A stretch of 46,121 nucleotides of DNA from an uncultured Flavobacteriales bacterium (GTDB lineage: Bacteria > Bacteroidota > Bacteroidia > Flavobacteriales_G > Salibacteraceae): contig CALCCE010000260.1 in assembly GCA_937899835.1 (NCBI GenBank), forward strand, positions 1 through 46,121. The letters are read 5' to 3'. Shown piece by piece: positions 6,160 to 27,324 of this stretch. A program made the position numbers and the translations under genes. Every line of letters begins with the position of its first letter. The stretch's first letter is position 1. The notes under the pieces were generated by a model. The model did no database searches and was not told the origin of the DNA. It saw only the letters and a program-made list of their open reading frames with translations.

Positions 6160-6277
6160 AATGATCAACCATCAATCTTTCCCATCACAATGATTAGTAG
6201 GAGGACACTTGTCGTTGGCCGACGAGTACAATCGATAAAACTAAGGCTATGAATTTAGTTGACACCTACGGGTGTAT

Positions 6278-6742
6278 TCATTCTTCAATCACCCGCTTAA
6301 AGATGATTCCCTGCGACCGGTAAACGATCATCGTCACGTTATCCCCTTTGCGGGCAAAATATTCAGCATCACCAGCCGTTTTCCAATCCTTTTTCCTGGT
6401 TGCTGTGATTTCTTGTGTCCACGCAGCATCATAGTTTTGAGGTGTAAAAGAGACCCATCCTCCCATCCATTTATCTACATCTTCGGGGCGTACCTTGATG
6501 GCAAATTTATAGTCCCACGAAGATGGCCCAGGAGTTTCTAATCGGCTATTGGTAAATCCATTGACATTGAACAATTCAAACTCTGCATTTTCAAATGAGC
6601 TATACGTTTGAATCTGTTGCTTCAAGATTTCCACCCGCTCTTCTTTCGTGGAATAATCATCACTGTCCAGCACATTTGAATCACCAATTGAGGTACAACT
6701 ACCGAGAGCAATGATAATTAGCCAAAGGGCGTATCTTTTCAT
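6278..6742 (-). CDS. small lipoprotein of unknown function
   Basis: The start at 6742 gives 154 residues with a lipoprotein signal (MKRYALWLIIIALGSC, lipobox LGSC), so it is probably anchored in a membrane by Cys16. The mature part is mixed alpha/beta with no motif I recognise. It contains WDYKFAIKVRPEDVDKWMGGW and ends in MIVYRSQGIIFKRVIEE. It lies downstream of the azurin gene on the same strand, about 115 bp away, and may be co-transcribed. The function is unknown. Confidence 0.7.
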   Translation of the reverse strand: MKRYALWLIIIALGSCTSIGDSNVLDSDDYSTKEERVEILKQQIQTYSSFENAEFELFNVNGFTNSRLETPGPSSWDYKFAIKVRPEDVDKWMGGWVSFTPQNYDAAWTQEITATRKKDWKTAGDAEYFARKGDNVTMIVYRSQGIIFKRVIEE

Positions 6743-6857
6743 TGAATATGCAGGGGCTAAAGTGCGAATCTCCATGTAGTGATTCAACTTCAGCAATTTT
6801 GAAATTGATTTAACTCAAAAATTCTCTTGAGAAATTACTAACCAATAATCCTGCTGT

Positions 6858-7364
6858 TTACTGCACAATAAATTTGCCCTTCATTAAGCCGTAATGTCCG
6901 GGATAAGAACAGATGAAATCGTAAGTACCTTTTGCGGGAGCTTGAAAGGTGATGGAGGTTGTCTCTCCACCTCCGATCATGTTGGTGGCAGCAATAACCG
7001 GAATTTCCTCCGGCAAATACTCCTTTTCTTTGGCATCGAGGGCTTTCATGGCATAATCGGTGATGCTGGTACCCTGGTGCAACAACACCCAATTGTGGCC
7101 CATCACCTCTTTGCTCATTTTGCCAATGTGTTTCAAAATCACGGTCACTTCTTGCCCTTCGCCAACGGTCATTTCCCGCTTGTCGAATTGCATTTGATCG
7201 TCACTGGAAATGGTCAACTCAATTTTCTTCCCGGTAATTTTGGGCTTGGTTTCTTCAGTAGTTTGTAACGAAGTACCGTTAGCTTCCGCGGAATTTTCCT
7301 GGGCTCCTCCGCCACAATTCACCAATGCAAAGGCGGTCCATACAATTGCGAAATATAATTTCAT
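6858..7364 (-). CDS. azurin-like blue copper lipoprotein
   Basis: This 168-residue protein has a lipoprotein-like signal (MKLYFAIVWTAFALVNC) and a charged linker, then a full azurin/plastocyanin domain. The type 1 copper ligands are all visible: His90 in MGHNWVLL, Cys152 in YDFICSYPGH, His157 and Met161 in YGLMKGKF. It should carry single electrons in the periplasm or at the outer membrane, typically to a cytochrome c peroxidase or terminal oxidase, neither of which is in this window. Its length is normal for Bacteroidota azurins, which carry an extra N-terminal linker. Confidence 0.93.
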   Translation of the reverse strand: MKLYFAIVWTAFALVNCGGGAQENSAEANGTSLQTTEETKPKITGKKIELTISSDDQMQFDKREMTVGEGQEVTVILKHIGKMSKEVMGHNWVLLHQGTSITDYAMKALDAKEKEYLPEEIPVIAATNMIGGGETTSITFQAPAKGTYDFICSYPGHYGLMKGKFIVQ

Positions 7365-7786
7365 CTCTTAAAAGATAATTTAGGTCTGGTTGATGCTTCC
7401 TCTCATAACAAGGAGGAATACCTTGCTTGCAAGGCCTCTTTTTCTTGCTGTTTAACAAATAAAACTACCAGGTGTTTGATTGCCTTTTGCAATACCGACA
7501 ATCTTACATCGGTCTTTTTGCAATGCTACTGAATTGAGGATAACAACACTCACTTTTATGTCAAACTTTGGCAGCTGATTTGGTTTTCAGCCAAAAATAA
7601 ACGCACACAAGATCGCCAACATGGTGGAGGTCCTTGGGTAATTCTGAGGAGTTAGTCTTACTGGAATTACCAGAATTTGAACCGCAAGAGGGCACATTGG
7701 GATCGTTGATTTATAGCCTGACTACGACCACCAGAAATGCATTTCCGATCGTCTTAGATACTATCTTGAGCAATCCATGCCTGTTT
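7365..7786. other. intergenic region (422 bp) between the azurin and hydrolase genes
   Basis: I see no convincing gene. It contains a 14-bp inverted repeat CCTTGC-TT-GCAAGG at 7421-7434, about 60 bp upstream of the azurin start. A second weak inverted repeat, ACCGA-N10-TCGGT, lies between two copies of TTTTGCAAT near 7486-7540. A plus-strand open frame from 7634 runs into the antisense of the hydrolase gene and looks spurious. Confidence 0.5.
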
Positions 7787-8653
7787 TTAGCCGATCCGCT
7801 CCTGGATGAGGGCTGCATATTCATTGGTTCTTTCCAACTCCGGAAAGTGGCCACACTCCTTGAATTCAATCACTTCGCAGTCACCAATGTGCTCTTTCAA
7901 AGAATCCTTATCGGTTTTTCGATGCGAAAAGTCCTGAGCCCCCCACACCAACGTGGTTGGAGTGCCGCTCAAGTTCAACGGTTGATGCTTGTACTTCGTC
8001 AAACCTTGCACCAAAGACGACAAGCAAAAACAGCCCCCATGGCCCATAGCACGGGTAGCGGCTTGAGCAAAATCCTTTTGCGAAGGATCGTTCTTAGGCA
8101 AAGCATACCGATACCAAACCTGCGCAAATTTCCGTGCGTAAATGGCATTCACCAACTGCCCGGCTACCGGCAATTTGAGCACACCTGGTATGGATTTTTC
8201 GGTCCATTTTAGAAGGCCGTGAACGGAAGGAGTCTGGGATAGAAACAAATGCTGAAAACGCTCAGGGTGATCCATGGCCGCTCGAATGGCATAGTAGCCA
8301 TTGGAACAAGAAAAAAGCAACGAGACCTTTGGGAGGTGCAGTGTATCCAACACCTGAAGCAGCAAATTGGCTCCATGGTCAAAAGAATAATTGTAACGCC
8401 CGTTGGGATAAGAAAATCCCAATCCCGGATATTCGAAGCAAACTACCCGGTAATCATTGGTCAACCTTTCGATTAGGGGCATTTGATGCTCAATCACATT
8501 GGGACCGTCGGGCACGTTTACAACAACCGGGCGCTTGCCTCCAGAATCGAATACCCGAAGTTTTCCAAAGTCCGTTTCCAGGTAGTGAAATCCCTCACCG
8601 AATTGCGGAGGCGATTTCCAGGCAAACCTGACGGTATCAATAAAGTTTCCCAT
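7787..8653 (-). CDS. alpha/beta hydrolase
   Basis: The 288-residue protein has the alpha/beta hydrolase order. The first strands and HG-like turn are VVVNVPDGPNVIEHQMPLIERL, the next strand is VCFEYPGLGFSYP, and the nucleophile elbow is FSCSNGYYA with Ser117. The acid is probably the Asp of VWGAQDFSHRKTD and the base the His of CGHFPELERTNEYA. The elbow reads S-C-S-N-G, which still satisfies small-x-nucleophile-x-small. The substrate cannot be read from the sequence. It is transcribed divergently from the efflux operon, with 266 bp between the starts. Confidence 0.88.
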   Translation of the reverse strand: MGNFIDTVRFAWKSPPQFGEGFHYLETDFGKLRVFDSGGKRPVVVNVPDGPNVIEHQMPLIERLTNDYRVVCFEYPGLGFSYPNGRYNYSFDHGANLLLQVLDTLHLPKVSLLFSCSNGYYAIRAAMDHPERFQHLFLSQTPSVHGLLKWTEKSIPGVLKLPVAGQLVNAIYARKFAQVWYRYALPKNDPSQKDFAQAATRAMGHGGCFCLSSLVQGLTKYKHQPLNLSGTPTTLVWGAQDFSHRKTDKDSLKEHIGDCEVIEFKECGHFPELERTNEYAALIQERIG

Positions 8654-8747
8654 TCTACCTTATTTAATGCGATTGGGTACGCTACCAAAATAGGAAAACC
8701 CTTCAAGTTACCGCCGGATAGCTCCCATCCGTTTACCCTGCAGCAGG

Positions 8748-8763
8748 TGTTCAAAAATGAACA
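8748..8763. promoter_or_regulatory. palindromic activator site TGTTCA-N4-TGAACA (candidate UAS of the efflux operon)
   Basis: TGTTCAAAAATGAACA is a perfect inverted repeat with 6-bp arms and a 4-bp centre. It ends 74 bp upstream of the -24 element at 8838, a typical enhancer distance for sigma-54 activators. It has the same size and arm geometry as TGTCCGATTTCGGACA at 3601-3616 upstream of the sigma-54 regulator gene. Confidence 0.65.
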
Positions 8764-8837
8764 ACCACTTGGTGCAAAAGCGAACAGTAAGCGACAAAAA
8801 ACCACTGAAAACAACCTAAAATCCGCAAAAAGGGCTT

Positions 8838-8852
8838 TGGCACAGCCATTGC
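8838..8852 (+). promoter_or_regulatory. sigma-54 (-24/-12) promoter of the efflux operon
   Basis: TGGCAC-AGCCA-TTGC matches the sigma-54 consensus TGGCAC-N5-TTGC at every defined base and with the obligatory spacing. Transcription would start near 8864, about 56 nt before ATG 8920. Sigma-54 promoters need an AAA+ activator, and one is encoded at 2069-3445. Confidence 0.8.
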
Positions 8853-8919
8853 CCAAAGGTGGTCAATCTACAAATGAAGCATTTGCACCTAAAAAAGTGG
8901 TGCACTTTCTCAGGTAATC

Positions 8920-10170
8920 ATGGATCAACCGATAGCACAAAAAAAATGGCGGTGGCGCCCCATAGCGGGTTGGGCCGGAGGAGGCATTGGGGTGTTGACT
9001 TTGATCTATTTGGTGGTATTTCAAGCTTCGGCTTCCAGCTTTAAGGTAGCGCGCGAGCGCTTGACCATCAACAAGGTCATATCGGGAGAGTTTCAAGACG
9101 TTATTCCCATTACCGGCACCGTAAAACCGATCCATAGTTTTTACCTCGATGCGGAAACTGGAGGGCGCGTAGAGCGCATATTGGCCGAGGATGGTGCTTT
9201 TATCAAAGCAGGCCAGGCCCTATTGCAGCTTTCGAACACTGCGCTAACATTGGATTTCATGAACCGTGAGACCCAAATTGTGGAGCAAATCAACAACCTG
9301 CGCAACACCCGGATCAACCTTGAGCAAACCCAACGAGACATCAACGAACAGGTGCTTGACATTGCCTTCGAATTGCGCACCATGGAACGCCAGTTTTCGC
9401 GTGATACGGTGTTGTACGAGCAATCGGTGATTGCTCGTAGTGAATTTGAAGACAGCCACGCCCGTTACCGTTACCTGAAACAGAAATACCGCCTGCTGGT
9501 AAGCGGCAATCAGAAAGATTCCATCTACCGCTTGCAACAACTCGCCCGAATTGACACTTCTTTGGAATTGATGGAACGCAACCTTGCGGCTATTCATAAA
9601 AACCTGGAAAGTTTGATTGTTAAGGCTCCCGTTGCCGGTCAACTCACGGGTTTCAACCATCAGGTTGGTGAAAGCAAAAACAAGGGCGAACACTTGGGTA
9701 GAATTGACGTATTGGATGGTTTTAAAGTGAGCTCTAAAGTGGACGAACACTACCTTTCCCGGGTAGAAGTTGGACAGGTGGGCGACTTTTTATTGAGCAA
9801 CCGTCGGCTGAGGCTGGAGGTTTCCAAAGTGCTCCCCGAAGTGATTAACGGTGAGTTTGAGATTGAACTGGCGTTTTTGGATTCTATTCCCTCAGCCGTA
9901 AGACGGGGACAAAGCTTGCAAATTCGATTGGCCTTAAGTGCTTCTAGCCTGGCATTGATGGTGCCCCGAGGTGGATTTTACAATACCACTGGTGGCAACT
10001 GGGTTTTTGTCGTTACTCCAAAAGGCGAAGCCCTGAAGCGAAAAGTGCGGCTGGGAAGGCAAAACACGGAATTTATAGAAGTATTAGATGGCCTTGAAGT
10101 TGGCGAAGAAATCGTGACTTCCAGCTATTCCAATTATGGCGATGCTGAAAGGTTGGTCATCAAAATTTAA
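8920..10170 (+). CDS. HlyD/MacA-type periplasmic adaptor of an ABC efflux system
   Basis: The 416-residue protein has one N-terminal membrane anchor (about residues 18-38, WAGGGIGVLTLIYLVVF). Half of a lipoyl domain follows (TGTVKPIHSFYLDAETGGRVERILAEDGAFIKAGQALLQL). A long alpha-helical hairpin spans about 105-225. The second lipoyl half is SLIVKAPVAGQLTG, followed by a beta-barrel and a membrane-proximal domain ending EVGEEIVTSS. This is the membrane fusion protein layout of MacA-like adaptors. It lies 8 bp before the ABC ATPase gene and should link the FtsX-type permease to an outer-membrane channel, which is not encoded here. A sigma-54 promoter and an activator palindrome precede it. Confidence 0.92.
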   Translation: MDQPIAQKKWRWRPIAGWAGGGIGVLTLIYLVVFQASASSFKVARERLTINKVISGEFQDVIPITGTVKPIHSFYLDAETGGRVERILAEDGAFIKAGQALLQLSNTALTLDFMNRETQIVEQINNLRNTRINLEQTQRDINEQVLDIAFELRTMERQFSRDTVLYEQSVIARSEFEDSHARYRYLKQKYRLLVSGNQKDSIYRLQQLARIDTSLELMERNLAAIHKNLESLIVKAPVAGQLTGFNHQVGESKNKGEHLGRIDVLDGFKVSSKVDEHYLSRVEVGQVGDFLLSNRRLRLEVSKVLPEVINGEFEIELAFLDSIPSAVRRGQSLQIRLALSASSLALMVPRGGFYNTTGGNWVFVVTPKGEALKRKVRLGRQNTEFIEVLDGLEVGEEIVTSSYSNYGDAERLVIKI

Positions 10171-19373: not shown

Positions 19374-19793
19374 TCAGGAAGCCCTTCGATGTTCAAAATC
19401 GGACAACGCGCCTCCCACCTGATCGACAATTTGGCGAAAGGATCCCTCGGTTTCCATATAGTTGATTGCTTGTTGGACCGATTTTTTGATCGTGGAGTGA
19501 GACGAGCGGTTTAGGTAGTCGGCAATAAACTGATAAGTGAACCCAAAAGTCATTTTAGCTACATAGCTAAAAATGTGTCGCGCAGAGGCAACTTCCTTGG
19601 TTTGATCTTTGGAGCGAATACGACTGGGAGGAATTCCGGTAAAATGAGAGACAATATAAAGCAGTCGATTAAGCTCAGGACTCGTAATTCCGGGGATCAC
19701 AAAGTAATTCATCGTCCGATGAGCAGGTGGCTTGCGATCAATCCCGGGGATTTCATTCAACATTGTATTTCGTATTTGGGGGCTGTCATTCAC
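19374..19793 (-). CDS. stand-alone DnaA domain IV-like DNA-binding protein
   Basis: The frame starts at GTG 19793, directly after the TAA of the preceding gene, and encodes 139 residues; ATG 19763 is an alternative. Residues 40-112 match the DNA-binding domain IV of DnaA: VSHFTGIPPSRIRS, then KEVASARHIFSYVAK, then FIADYLNRSSHSTIKKSV, equivalent to the DnaA signature around its DHST motif. No AAA+ ATPase is present here or nearby. Such single domains occur in phage and plasmid replication modules and in small chromosomal proteins. It could recognise DnaA-box-like DNA without opening an origin. It is the last gene of a four-gene minus-strand operon. Confidence 0.8.
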   Translation of the reverse strand: MNDSPQIRNTMLNEIPGIDRKPPAHRTMNYFVIPGITSPELNRLLYIVSHFTGIPPSRIRSKDQTKEVASARHIFSYVAKMTFGFTYQFIADYLNRSSHSTIKKSVQQAINYMETEGSFRQIVDQVGGALSDFEHRRAS

Positions 19794-20633
19794 TTAAGAG
19801 CGTCCAAAGCCCGCTGGGCTTAAAGGCTCTCGGTCACGGATCAATTGCTCCAGGTTGGCACAGGTTTGTTTCAACTCGCGTAGGTAAGACTGCAGCGCTA
19901 ACTTTTTTGCAAGAGAGATTACTTGTTTTTTGTTGCACTTCCGTTGAATCAAGAGGTGGTGCAAGCGCTCCTGCTCTATACCTGATGCCTTTCGCCTTTG
20001 ACGTTGCAATCCTTCAAAATAGGCTTCGCGCGCCTCATCAATAAAAGCCAATTTCTGCTCATTGCTGAATGGAATGAGCTTGAGCTTGTCTAAATAATCA
20101 TAGCGCACGTTCCCATAATCCTGAATTTGGTACTCATCGGTGATCACAAAGGTGGCATACTCTGTAATCAACCGTTGCTTGAGTTGATAGCGGGTGGCGG
20201 TTTTTCGCTGGTTGACATCGGCCTCACGCGCCATGCGAACGCTTGCTTCAAAAGCTTCCTGCTCCTTCAAAACCCGGTCGCGATGCCGCTGGTATTTTTT
20301 AAGGCAAGCGTGAAGGGTTTGCGCTTTCAGCTTGCCTTCTTGCCGAACCTGACGGGTTTCGCGAAATGCCAGGTATAGGTCTTCAGGAGAAAAATGGGCA
20401 TACTCCTGCATCACCAGCTTGGAGAGGGTTTCGGAAAGCTCTGAGAGAAAAAGCCGACCGGCAATGCCAGAACGCTTAGCAACATCACGAACTGACTGTA
20501 GCAGTAATTCCTGCAGCTGCGTTGGACTCAAACGAACCAAGGGAATTCCACGCGAGGCCAGCACCACCTCACGGTGGTTGGCCGATGCCTGCTGTGGAAA
20601 TTCGATGTTTGAGATGTAACGGTAGCGGTTCAT
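19794..20633 (-). CDS. hypothetical protein of the phage-like module (279 aa)
   Basis: ATG 20633 follows the stop of the winged-helix gene after 2 bp. The protein is largely alpha-helical and basic, with no signal peptide or membrane segment. It begins with RYRYISNIEFPQQASANHREVV, has LQELLLQSVRDVAKRSG and a long helical stretch LHACLKKYQRHRDRVLKEQEAFEASVRMAREAD in the middle, abridged here to its edges. The second half contains QKLAFIDEAREAYFEGLQRQRRKASGIEQ. Its place between a winged helix and a DnaA-domain protein suggests a role in replication or DNA loading. I do not recognise its family. Confidence 0.65.
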   Translation of the reverse strand: MNRYRYISNIEFPQQASANHREVVLASRGIPLVRLSPTQLQELLLQSVRDVAKRSGIAGRLFLSELSETLSKLVMQEYAHFSPEDLYLAFRETRQVRQEGKLKAQTLHACLKKYQRHRDRVLKEQEAFEASVRMAREADVNQRKTATRYQLKQRLITEYATFVITDEYQIQDYGNVRYDYLDKLKLIPFSNEQKLAFIDEAREAYFEGLQRQRRKASGIEQERLHHLLIQRKCNKKQVISLAKKLALQSYLRELKQTCANLEQLIRDREPLSPAGFGRS

Positions 20634-20635
20634 GG

Positions 20636-20929
20636 TCAATCGTTTTGAACGGTTTCGGTGAGTTTCCAGAGAATGACTCGTCGATTGGTTTCACTCGAAC
20701 GAATGGCTCCGGCACGCTCGAGCAGCCCCAGGTCGCGCAGTTCACTTACGCGACCGGAAACCCGGTGAATTTCCCAGCCCAAACAGCGGGCAATTTGTTT
20801 GTTGTGGCAAACTCCGAGCTCTAAAATGGTATCCAATACCTGGCGCTGACTATTGCCCAGACGCAACCGGCCGTAGGGCCGCAAACCGCGTACAGGCCGT
20901 TGCTTTACGGAAGGGTTCATTGTGATCAT
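20636..20929 (-). CDS. winged helix-turn-helix protein
   Basis: The 97-residue protein has a short basic N-terminus (VKQRPVRGLRPYGRLRLG). A compact winged helix follows: RQVLDTILELGVCHNKQIARCLGWEIHRVSGRVSELRDLG, abridged here, is the helix-turn-helix and SETNRRVILWKL the wing. This is the layout seen in phage excisionase, replication-initiator or MarR-like small regulators. It sits between the Rad52-like gene (62 bp upstream) and the 279-aa gene (2 bp downstream). It may regulate the module or bind its DNA during replication. Confidence 0.72.
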   Translation of the reverse strand: MITMNPSVKQRPVRGLRPYGRLRLGNSQRQVLDTILELGVCHNKQIARCLGWEIHRVSGRVSELRDLGLLERAGAIRSSETNRRVILWKLTETVQND

Positions 20930-20991
20930 GTGGTGGTGGTATGGTGTATATAATATGAATGGTTCGTGCCTTACAAAAGATGGCCTTCACA

Positions 20992-21552
20992 TCAGGCAAC
21001 TTTATCTTCAGGAATAAGCGGTTGATAAGTATCGCTTAATCTACGGTTGAGATCACGCCCAAACTGCTTGCCGATAGAGGCTGCTGCATTGCTTAGACAA
21101 AGGGCCTTGAGCTTTGGAAAAGCTTGCTCAAAAGCATTCCTACGTTTGTAGGCGTCAAATTCAATAGGACTGGTATTGCGCTCTTGCGGCACCTGCACTG
21201 CTGCAGCTCCGGTACGGATCAGTGTGCGACCCGTAATGGGATGCACTACCTCCAATTCAAGACTGCCAAGCAATTCGTTGCCATCGCGGTGATAGCGGAA
21301 GTTGCGCAAGCTCCACTGCCCGAAAAAAACCTCATCCAGTGACATCTCAACAAAGGAAATGGGTAAGTATTGCGACTGATTAGCGTAAGGATTAGTTTGT
21401 ACTTGCTGTGAATCAGGTAGGCGATTGATGAGACGGTTGAACTTTTGCAACTTCATTAAAGTAGAGTGATCGTGATTTTCTACAATGGCTGCTACGGCTT
21501 GTTCCGCATTTTTTCCGCTCGGATCCTGTCCGTGTATCGTATTTTCTTTCAT
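20992..21552 (-). CDS. Rad52-like single-strand annealing protein (candidate)
   Basis: ATG 21552 gives 186 residues. Residues 62-170 follow the Rad52/Sak core. LPISFVEMSLDEVFFGQWSLRNF resembles the first helix and strand, LLGSLELEVVHPITGRTLIRTGAAAV the sheet. The helix FPKLKALCLSNAAASIGKQFGRDLNR resembles the A-K-T-D-A-x-K-R-x-x-x-x-F-G signature. If right, it pairs complementary DNA strands, as in phage recombination. It is the first gene of the minus-strand module, divergent from an S24-type repressor, which is the classical phage arrangement. The assignment rests on motif order only, and a DUF of unknown role is the alternative. Confidence 0.5.
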   Translation of the reverse strand: MKENTIHGQDPSGKNAEQAVAAIVENHDHSTLMKLQKFNRLINRLPDSQQVQTNPYANQSQYLPISFVEMSLDEVFFGQWSLRNFRYHRDGNELLGSLELEVVHPITGRTLIRTGAAAVQVPQERNTSPIEFDAYKRRNAFEQAFPKLKALCLSNAAASIGKQFGRDLNRRLSDTYQPLIPEDKVA

Positions 21553-21709
21553 AGGGTTATGAGGTTGAACAAGCAGTACACTACTGAATGGGGTGACTTT
21601 TTTCAACTTATTTGATTTCATTTGAGCAATTAAATAGTTGATTGAGAGGATAAAGTAGCTAAATCGACTTGCATTCCGTAAAACTTTTATTAATTTCGAG
21701 GTTAACAGA

Positions 21710-21721
21710 TACACAAATGTA
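21710..21721 (-). promoter_or_regulatory. candidate -7 box and operator of the phage-like module
   Basis: The minus strand reads TACATTTG at 21721-21714, a perfect TAnnTTTG -7 box, about 160 nt upstream of ATG 21552. The same bases lie within the inverted repeat TACA-CAAA-TGTA (21710-21721), so a repressor bound here would cover the promoter. The arms are only 4 bp and no -33 box is evident. Confidence 0.35.
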
Positions 21722-21794
21722 AAATATTTTTTACTATTGTCATCCATCATTAACTAATTTTTTCACACTTCTCCCGCCCCAATTTCCTAAGTGT

Positions 21795-22478
21795 ATGAAT
21801 ACCAAGGCCGCCATCGAAGAATTAGCCAAAATCTTTGAAAACAAGTCCATTAGCGTAGAAAAAGTGGCTACCGATATTGGTACTAGCAAACACAACATCT
21901 ACAATGCACTGAAACGAGGAGACATTAAATTGAGCTTGTACAGCGAAATACTCAGCCATCCGGAAGTAAAAAAAATGCTACAACCGGAATTGCCACTGCA
22001 AAACAGTTCGGAAAAAGTGTTTCCGATAGTAGTAGATCCTGAAAATCGTGAGTTAGTGAGTCTTGTTCCAATATATGCGCAAGCGGGGTACATGCGGGGG
22101 TACTCTGACCCTGAGTTTATCAGAAGTTTACCCCTAACCCAAGATACTACCTACGATGACGGTACTTACCGAGATTTTGAGATCAAGGGGGACAGCATGG
22201 AAAATTATTTCTTCGAACGGGATATCATTCGCGCCAAGTACCTGCCTGAAATTTATTGGGAAAAGCGACTTCATGTTGGCCAATTGTTTGTCATCTTACA
22301 CAAAACCGACGGTGTGGTATTCAAGCAACTTGTAGACCACAATCCCAATTCAGGCGACCTTACCTTGCACTCTTTCAACGATTATTACGAAGACTACACC
22401 GTTAATCTAAGAGATGTGCAACAACTCTGGTACTACACAGAATACCGCTCAAGACGCCTCTTCAAGCAAGTGCGTTGA
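21795..22478 (+). CDS. S24/LexA-type repressor (CI-like)
   Basis: The 227-residue protein begins with a helix-turn-helix (VEKVATDIGTSKHNIYNALKRGDIKLS, residues 21-47). It ends with an S24 peptidase domain like LexA and CI. The Ala-Gly bond for self-cleavage is visible (QAGYM, 97-98), as is nucleophile Ser134 in EIKGDSMEN and the general base Lys177 in DGVVFKQLV. All catalytic elements are intact, so RecA-stimulated self-cleavage is expected. It is transcribed away from the Rad52-like/DnaA-IV operon with 242 bp between the starts. Repression of that operon until DNA damage is the obvious model. Confidence 0.88.
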   Translation: MNTKAAIEELAKIFENKSISVEKVATDIGTSKHNIYNALKRGDIKLSLYSEILSHPEVKKMLQPELPLQNSSEKVFPIVVDPENRELVSLVPIYAQAGYMRGYSDPEFIRSLPLTQDTTYDDGTYRDFEIKGDSMENYFFERDIIRAKYLPEIYWEKRLHVGQLFVILHKTDGVVFKQLVDHNPNSGDLTLHSFNDYYEDYTVNLRDVQQLWYYTEYRSRRLFKQVR

Positions 22479-22490
22479 GCAATACTTAGT

Positions 22491-22521
22491 ACCGAAGCAT
22501 TGATCCACCACCAACTTCGGT
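22491..22521 (+). terminator. hairpin after the repressor gene (weak terminator)
   Basis: ACCGAAG (22491-22497) pairs with CTTCGGT (22515-22521) around a 17-nt loop and is followed by TGTTT. It begins 12 bp after the stop of the S24 repressor gene. The T-run is poor. Confidence 0.35.
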
Positions 22522-22534
22522 TGTTTAAAGTCAC

Positions 22535-22682
22535 CGCTACATCTTCACCAAGTAGCGTTAAATGCCCCACCCTAGCCAGGGAGGCATTAGTATTTCAAAT
22601 ACACCTAGTATAAATACGTGTTTTCTATAGCGTTAAAGTACGCTAACACTACTGCGGAAAATTACGATGCTAAGTAGCGCTA
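22535..22682. repeat. cluster of TAGCG motifs
   Basis: TAGCGTTAAA occurs at 22553-22562 and 22628-22637. The second copy is part of the inverted repeat TAGCGT-TAAAGT-ACGCTA (22628-22645). A palindromic TAGCGCTA lies at 22675-22682 and an inverted CGCTA at 22535-22539. Six TAGCG occurrences in about 150 bp is far above chance for a 5-mer. Confidence 0.45.
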
Positions 22683-22787
22683 GTGGCTAAAGCCCACTCG
22701 AACAGACTACTGAAATTTGACTTTTAAATCAAGTGTAAAGACTTGGATTGAGGCAATAGTAATCGTAGTTCGCAGAGTGTGTTGCCG

Positions 22788-22825
22788 TTAAGAAGACGGA
22801 ATAGACGATTAAGAACACGGATTAG
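22788..22825. repeat. direct repeat with 21-bp period
   Basis: TTAAGAAGACGGAATAG (22788-22804) and TTAAGAACACGGATTAG (22809-22825) match at 15 of 17 positions. The 21-bp period is two helical turns, so a protein could bind both copies on the same face. Confidence 0.55.
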
Positions 22826-22852
22826 GGATCAGCTCCTGAGGTAAACAGACGT

Positions 22853-22918
22853 TCACTTGACAATGATGCACAGTCAACACTCTGTCTTTGAGTTGTCCAT
22901 TAAATAAGCGTCAAGTGA
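22853..22918. repeat. inverted repeat TCACTTGAC / GTCAAGTGA
   Basis: Nine-base perfect arms at 22853-22861 and 22910-22918 flank a 48-nt interval. The next flanking bases extend the match imperfectly. No T-run follows, so it is not an ordinary terminator. Confidence 0.45.
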
Positions 22919-23072
22919 CCACTCAGGTGAGTTTTCTAAAGGAACGAGTAGTTCATTACAAAATCATGCCTACAAAATCCAAAATTTTTACCGGAAGAAT
23001 CTATAGACGTTAAAATCGTTGCCTGCCCCGGCAATAAATCCAACCTGAGCCAGCCAAGGGGTGAGTGGTTGG

Positions 23073-23127
23073 CCAACTCCGGCGGGAAATATTCCTGAGG
23101 GGGCTTAAGGAAGCCTGTCGGAGTTGG
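23073..23127 (+). promoter_or_regulatory. structured leader upstream of the NarL-type kinase
   Basis: CCAACTCCG (23073-23081) pairs perfectly with CGGAGTTGG (23119-23127). An inner hairpin GGCTT-AAGG-AAGCC sits inside the loop at about 23102-23115. The structure ends 22 bp before ATG 23150, so if transcribed it forms the 5' leader. It could be an attenuator-like or stabilising leader, or an operator. Confidence 0.4.
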
Positions 23128-23149
23128 TTGGAAAATTTTAGGATAAAAA

Positions 23150-25901: not shown

Positions 25902-26555
25902 ATGCACAGTATTCACCAAAATCTAAAACGCCAGGACCTCGATCAATTAGAGTGTCAGGCAGCGTGGCCGCCGTCTTGCTACTGGAACATTTTCCCAGGC
26001 ACCAGGGCCTATTTACTTATGCAACGTTTTCATCACAACCTCTCTTTTCAGGAGTGGGGACTGGTATCGGATTGGTTTGTGAAAATGAGTGGTTATAAAG
26101 CGGGGCTAAGTATACCTTTTATAAGGAAGGAAAAACTTTCCCTTACCTGCTGGGCAGGTGCACTTACCCATCAACGCTGTATCGTTCCCATCAACGGATT
26201 TTTTTCTACCCGCCAGACCGAAGATGGTGTACGGGTCTATTTTTCACAGAAACCAGACCAAAGTCCATTCTATGCTGCAGGATTGTGCCCCTTTCGGGAA
26301 GATCGTCCGGGTACATATGGGTTTGCCCTCATTACCAACGATCCACCTTTATCAAGTATCCTTAATGGAAGCAAAGTACCAGCTCTGCTTCACCCTACTC
26401 AGGTTGCCCAATGGCTGGACGAAGCTGTTGATCATGCTGAAGCACTTAAGATGCTCATGTGCAATCACCGTGAAGTGCTTGAAAGCTTCGAAGTCAGCCC
26501 TCAGGCCCTGCAACCTCGTCATCAGCACCAATCTTTGTTAGCGCCAATCGGATGA
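25902..26555 (+). CDS. SRAP/HMCES-family protein lacking all catalytic residues
   Basis: The 217-residue protein aligns in order with YedK/HMCES: WNIFPGTRAYLL (for YNVAPGT), FQEWGLVSDW (for WG.aPgW), HQRCIVPINGFFST (for RaicfaDGwfEW), SPFYAAGLCPF, GFALITNDP and SKVPALLHPTQVAQWL. SRAP proteins use Cys2, a conserved Asn (NAR..ET), a Glu (DGFYEW) and a His (near RMPVIL). Here position 2 is His. The NAR motif reads AGLSIP, the Glu is Ser in NGFFST, and the His is gone. In-frame codons upstream reach a stop at 25881, so no MCGR start is hidden. It cannot form the usual abasic-site crosslink but may keep the DNA-binding fold. Confidence 0.72.
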   Translation: MHSIHQNLKRQDLDQLECQAAWPPSCYWNIFPGTRAYLLMQRFHHNLSFQEWGLVSDWFVKMSGYKAGLSIPFIRKEKLSLTCWAGALTHQRCIVPINGFFSTRQTEDGVRVYFSQKPDQSPFYAAGLCPFREDRPGTYGFALITNDPPLSSILNGSKVPALLHPTQVAQWLDEAVDHAEALKMLMCNHREVLESFEVSPQALQPRHQHQSLLAPIG

Positions 26556-26871
26556 TGCTCTGAAACCCTTACCAACAAAAAGTTTCGAAAAAAAACGGAA
26601 AGTAGTAATGGAACTAAAATTGCTGTGTATCTTGCACAAGATTACAGCGATGCTGTATAATGTAACTATTAATCTTGTAGACTGTATTACAACGATTTAA
26701 ACAAAGAAAACAGCGGTTTTGAAAATTGGGTAGCGACCTACAAAATCCGCTTCATTATCAATCTCCGAATACCAATTTTATTTAGGCCCACTTAGCGATA
26801 GATTGAGTCATTCTCTTCCCAAACCTATCCGGGCCCAAAGCGTCTCCATTCTTTTTCTAATACTTTTTCTA
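26556..26871. other. leader/intergenic region (316 bp) before the RRM gene
   Basis: No gene is supported. It includes an inverted repeat TACAGC-GAT-GCTGTA (26643-26657), a possible CTTG-CA-CAAG element at about 26632-26641 and two copies of TTTTTCTAAT just before ATG 26872. A long leader is common for cold-inducible RNA-binding protein genes, but no regulatory RNA can be shown here. Confidence 0.4.
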
Positions 26872-27324
26872 ATGAACATTTTTGTAGCTAGGTTGGCCGC
26901 AGAAACCACCAGCGAAGACCTTAATGACCTTTTCTCTGCTTTTGGTGCTGTTTCTTCCGCCAAGGTAATTATTGATCGGGAAACCGGACACTCCAAGCGT
27001 TACGGCTTTGTAGAGATGGACAACGATGATGAAGGCTATGCCGCCATCGAAAACCTTAACGAATCCAGTGTTGACGGAAGCAATATTGTAGTGAAAAAAG
27101 CGCGCCCACGCACAGAGAACTCCGGTGGCGGTGGTTTTCGTGGCGGTGGTGGCGGTGGCTATCGCGGTGGCGGTGGCGGTGGCGGCTACCGTGATGGTGG
27201 TCGTGACGGCGGTTACCAAAGAGGCAATGACAACCGTAATCGAGGCGGTGGCCGCGACAATCGTCGGGGAGGCTTCTCCGGTGGTGGAAATGATCGCGAC
27301 TACGACAGCCACGATCGCTATTAA
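26872..27324 (+). CDS. glycine-rich RRM RNA-binding protein
   Basis: ATG 26872 gives 150 residues starting NIFVARL, the RNP2 strand of an RNA recognition motif. RNP1 is KRYGFVEM, and the domain ends near residue 80 (IVVKKARPR). The rest is a low-complexity tail rich in GGGGGYR and RD repeats, ending DYDSHDRY. The upstream in-frame extension to 26803 would insert a hydrophobic stretch before RNP2 and is unlikely. Such proteins bind single-stranded RNA and are often cold-induced. A strong intrinsic terminator follows the gene. Confidence 0.92.
   Translation: MNIFVARLAAETTSEDLNDLFSAFGAVSSAKVIIDRETGHSKRYGFVEMDNDDEGYAAIENLNESSVDGSNIVVKKARPRTENSGGGGFRGGGGGGYRGGGGGGGYRDGGRDGGYQRGNDNRNRGGGRDNRRGGFSGGGNDRDYDSHDRY

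Follow-up and report, generated by a model that had tools for sequence, protein, structure and literature searches.

The window, a complete contig of 46121 b from a 6.9-Mb genome in 307 contigs, raises the question of whether a compact group of phage-type genes at positions 19374-22478 is a leftover of a phage or a unit kept by the bacterial host for its own use. The ORF list shows five intact frames in this region, an S24 peptidase gene on the plus strand opposite four minus-strand genes, with the following features:

21795..22478, plus strand: S24 peptidase repressor, probably CI-like, 227 aa (PF00717, catalytic residues, tree)
21553..21794, no strand: divergent promoter region, with a candidate promoter element and dyad; speculative
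20992..21552, minus strand: single-strand annealing protein (SSAP), assigned to the Rad52 superfamily by predicted fold, 186 aa, ATG start (phrog_15333, AlphaFold2 model, structural matches to RAD52 and Sak)
20636..20929, minus strand: winged-helix (WH) protein, 97 aa (phrog_1123, E 1e-13)
19794..20633, minus strand: U279, probably a divergent phage replication protein, 279 aa, ATG start (weak phrog_26016 and profile matches)
19374..19793, minus strand: DnaA domain IV (DnaA-IV) protein without ATPase domain, 139 aa, GTG start (PF08299, E 5e-12)

The minus-strand genes follow each other in the order SSAP, WH, U279 and DnaA-IV, with gaps of 62, 2 and 0 bp, and the S24 gene faces this operon across 242 bp. 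Coordinates and domain calls thus agree with the layout given in a preliminary description of this DNA, and the intactness that it claimed for all frames is confirmed for each of the five. Its characterization of the module as phage-like and devoid of integrase and structural genes also holds: no integrase, terminase, capsid or lysis gene was recognised among the ORFs read on the 46-kb contig, which therefore does not carry an intact temperate prophage. No relaxase was recognised in the window, and neither a tRNA nor an Rfam family was found. The codon usage of the five frames is host-like, as judged against the genes of the window only. A reading as a defence system was considered and rejected, since PADLOC returned nothing beyond matches to generic winged helices.

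The SSAP gene (21552..20992) is read here from an ATG downstream of the start of the mechanical ORF, and its product belongs to phrog_15333 of the PHROGs collection. Taken alone, this sequence is not recognised as Rad52 by Pfam, and searches of the PDB with sequence profiles yielded no true match, but of 51 relatives 19 are assigned to the Pfam family Rad52_Rad22. An AlphaFold2 model built from the alignment of the 51 relatives has a mean pLDDT of 90.6, and Foldseek ranks human RAD52 first among its matches (E 5.2e-6). In a structural aligner the model superimposes on RAD52 with Z 13.4 and rmsd 2.8 for 129 aligned residues, compared with Z 10.5 for Mgm101, 9.4 for Sak of phage 80a and about 6 for unrelated rows. 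The predicted fold is that of the Rad52-type annealing core, which places the protein in the Rad52 SSAP superfamily, and the earlier naming of a Rad52-like annealing protein is correct at this level.

Single-sequence scans of viral and GTDB contigs gave no SSAP relatives. An alignment-based scan found 80 loci in IMG/VR, the best being 43–48% identical, and ten loci in GTDB contigs, among them two Chryseobacterium genomes (L096, L099) and several Bacteroidota MAGs; the identity in Bacteroidota genomes is 42–46%. Terminase- and portal-like genes in L007 and a terminase-like gene in L013, named by reading the sequences, are located near the SSAP relative, and close relatives are also found in the prophage-like early regions L096, L097 and L099. 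In the class sample of 395 genomes only two other genomes have an SSAP relative, and 72,556 plasmids contain no match.

The usual partner of a phage SSAP is a nuclease, and the gene after the SSAP in the relatives often encodes one (YqaJ in 19 of 54, DUF3799 in 5 and PDDEXK_1 in 3). The tailed-phage contigs from IMG/VR, of the type of L007, L008, L010 and L013, resemble the module in their SSAP but carry terminase or other phage genes and a nuclease gene directly after the SSAP, whereas the window has neither these phage genes nor the partner nuclease gene. Another contig (L089), assigned to a genome of the class, encodes RecT-like, nuclease and replication genes at 6272-9923, and may be a foreign phage or contamination.

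The closest arrangements involving the WH protein are found in the prophage-like early regions of Chryseobacterium daeguense (L096) and C. oranimense (L099), where a WH gene of the phrog_1123 type directly precedes a Rad52-type SSAP, 42% and 41% identical, respectively, to that of the window. The L096 gene is assigned to the same PHROG as the window WH protein, and the L099 counterpart is 41% identical to it over 37 residues. In L096 a divergent S24 gene lies upstream, like the facing S24 gene of the window. The gene order differs, however: in both Chryseobacterium regions the WH gene precedes the SSAP, directly followed by a 299-aa gene, while in the window the SSAP precedes the WH gene, and U279 and DnaA-IV follow.

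At E below 0.01, eleven viral loci encode a DnaA-IV-like protein in the neighbourhood of an SSAP, and Pfam confirms the domain in three of the eleven and in L097, where the gene lies 1 kb upstream of the SSAP. The stand-alone DnaA-IV proteins of L059, L073, L080 and L097 are, like that of the window, PF08299 proteins without the ATPase domain encoded near an SSAP, although their identity to the window protein is about 25% and their neighbours differ. DnaA boxes in the module are limited to one-mismatch sites. In a phage-like region of a genome of the class (L159, 4857-5468), DnaA-IV is fused behind a DUF7768 domain, a further form in which regions of this type encode DnaA-IV.

U279 is the most divergent part of the module. 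Its relatives were found in no other genome of the 395-genome class sample, nor in a single-sequence scan of viral contigs. It matches phrog_26016 weakly (E 3e-4), and its residues 68–124 give a weak, 10-bit match to a profile of phage replication-region proteins seeded on L013 and L090, a group whose role is presumably that of helicase loaders. The structure model, made without an alignment, has a pLDDT of 42 and is not usable. U279 is, with low confidence, probably a divergent phage replication protein and possibly helicase-loader-like.

The S24 domain is recognised by Pfam (PF00717) with 27.8 bits against a cut-off of 23.3. The protein retains the cleavage bond Ala97-Gly98 and the Ser134, Lys177 dyad, with a spacing close to that of lambda CI, and these features together with the divergent early operon that it faces are those of a CI-type repressor. 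In a tree of sampled S24 proteins two groups are formed, and the window protein falls among phage and prophage repressors with support of 100/99, together with L156, L157 (located beside a MuA-like gene), L111 and the repressor of phage Arctus_1. CTAA-N5-TTAG motifs occur in the loci of three members of the other group (L112, L114, L123). Given its long branches and arbitrary root, the tree is moderate evidence that the protein groups with phage repressors, apart from non-canonical LexA.

The module is flanked by ordinary chromosomal genes, which can be followed for ~19 kb and ~24 kb, the window being the entire contig. One flank begins with a thioredoxin-like gene and a GAF/PAS-type sensor; the opposite flank has a histidine kinase and a response regulator. 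Comparison of eight flanking proteins with PHROGs revealed no hallmark phage family, and the matches are those that sensor kinases, response regulators, OmpA-like, SRAP and desaturase-like proteins would normally give. The search for att sites proposed in the preliminary description yielded nothing beyond weak pairs of flanking repeats. The S24 gene is followed by 671 bp (22479-23149) that contain no substantial ORF, are single-copy in the genome and give no PHROG match in six frames that would indicate decayed phage genes; an inverted repeat, CACTTGAC, is present within this stretch at 22854 and 22910. In the best relative of the flanks (G041, 44%), a 4.8-kb contig carries the thioredoxin-like gene and, after it, a related membrane-sensor gene, the gene upstream being a different one; the empty-site comparison with it shows little.

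With a probability of roughly 0.8, the module is a stranded immunity-recombination-replication (early) segment of a temperate tailed phage in a Bacteroidota chromosome. Phage-type families account for four of the five parts, some of which occur pairwise next to each other in phages or prophage-like regions: WH with SSAP in L096 and L099, and DnaA-IV close to the SSAP in L097 and in viral loci, U279 being weakly placed. Relatives of the SSAP and the WH protein occur together with a divergent S24 gene in L096, and the scarcity of SSAP and U279 in the class sample is what an accidental insertion would give. The preliminary description had named a position of the module inside a larger prophage in relatives as a finding against domestication; this is the case for its parts (L007, L013, L096, L097, L099) and not for the module as a whole, and no phage with the exact gene order was found, U279 having no clear phage relative. 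Against a remnant, five intact frames with host-like codon usage are unexpected after long decay, and, with neither att-like repeats nor decayed genes in the 671 bp, the deletion is not seen directly. A recent remnant or a host-adapted phage, however, would equally show intact frames and host-like codon usage.

Family membership suggests a mechanism of the kind usual in temperate phages, a repressor controlling an early operon. In the phage, the divergent early promoter would be kept closed by the S24 repressor until RecA filaments, formed on damaged DNA, induced the repressor to cleave itself at Ala97-Gly98. Phage recombination would then rely on the SSAP to anneal single strands, and WH, U279 and DnaA-IV would assist the initiation of phage DNA replication, the DnaA-IV domain presumably by binding DNA and U279 perhaps in the manner of a helicase loader. 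The rest of the phage was presumably lost by deletion, and with the partner nuclease, integrase and virion genes gone the piece would be able neither to move nor to form particles. Expression of its genes would at best allow annealing or recombination of DNA, infecting phages being one possible partner.

The preliminary description favoured a domesticated, DNA-damage-inducible recombination unit. On this reading the host would have preserved the CI-type repressor and the Rad52/replication operon in order to anneal strands independently of RecA, with S24 self-cleavage as the RecA-triggered switch. Damage induction of this kind is plausible because the S24 catalytic residues are present, and the intact frames, the host-like codon usage and the lack of mobility or virion genes on the contig agree with host use; self-cleavage is as much a feature of prophages, however, and a host-adapted phage would show the same codon usage. 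The same gene order, anticipated in other Bacteroidota, was seen in no other genome searched, including the 395 of the class sample and the 34 of the same family, among which there is no other species of the source genus. U279 relatives occur in none of the 395 genomes and the two SSAP relatives among them are distant, neither protein has a relative in the 34 same-family genomes, and relatives of the parts sit in larger phage regions. Because a second copy of the module was not found, selection is not measurable, and no conservation points to a host function under selection. The phage-type parts, the missing partners and the lack of a second copy therefore favour the phage remnant, intact frames fitting either reading, and a domesticated unit appears unlikely.

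Less likely still is a phage satellite or a small mobile element of non-phage type, equipped with a repressor and replication genes of its own, whose integrase was lost or never present. The compact repressor-plus-replication layout would suit such an element, and DnaA-IV proteins are not restricted to phages, but the SSAP is matchless in the plasmids, the window has no recognised integrase or relaxase and no flanking repeats, and the nearest relatives of the SSAP, WH and S24 proteins are found in phages or prophage-like regions.

In Bacteroidetes, LexA substitutes with boxes CTAA-N5-TTAG or GGA-N5-TCC originate from phage repressors (PMC8565304), and the window S24 was for this reason tested as a LexA candidate. 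The non-canonical LexA proteins described there share with it the HTH and S24 domains, the Ala-Gly bond and the Ser-Lys dyad, but form a separate group in the tree, and the window lacks an exact CTAA-N5-TTAG, diverged boxes being known. The protein does not group with chromosomal SOS repressors. The genome has two further S24 genes, and one of these, an HTH and S24 gene elsewhere in the genome (G000, C21; L168 6124-6909, minus strand), has the CTAA-N5-TTAG motif CTAATTTTATTAG 14 bp before its start codon and another such motif within the coding sequence; it is likely to encode the non-canonical host LexA. That the window S24 is itself this host SOS repressor or a paralogue that took over an old phage operon is highly improbable, even though the S24 domain is homologous, a related protein occurs in 177 of 247 class genomes and a broken prophage with a surviving repressor has been proposed as a route (PMC8565304), given its place among phage repressors, albeit on long branches, the lack of an exact box in the window and the motif just upstream of a different S24 gene.

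The divergent region contains a Bacteroidota-type -7-like element, TACATTTG, on the minus strand at 21721..21714, which overlaps a dyad, GTAAAA-N4-TTTTAC, at 21719-21734. The dyad is a speculative candidate operator. Equally long arms arise in 60% of shuffles of the region, so that the perfect dyad is not beyond chance, and the genome contains four occurrences of its pattern, the same number as for a control, with no SOS gene recognised at the other three sites.

The combination of a Rad52-type SSAP, a WH protein, a 279-aa orphan and DnaA-IV was found nowhere else in the genomes searched. Its novelty is modest, as known parts are newly combined with one orphan gene and a new mechanism is not needed. 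Rad52-like recombinases, like prophage remnants, contribute to the mosaicism of phages (PMC3945230), and intact leftover early modules are raw material for the takeover of phage repressors by hosts, the route proposed for LexA of this phylum (PMC8565304). Should the module after all be kept by the host, it would be a snapshot of that proposed step, the repressor of a broken prophage surviving on the chromosome.

Two further genes of the window lie beyond the module. A SRAP-family gene at 25902-26555 (plus strand; PF02586, E 5.6e-23) matches its profile from position 24, and the usual Met-Cys start is present in no frame just upstream, so that the gene looks N-terminally truncated or broken. 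The gene at 26803-27324 (plus strand) encodes a glycine-rich RRM (RNA-binding) protein, and its listed TTG start is probably too far upstream.
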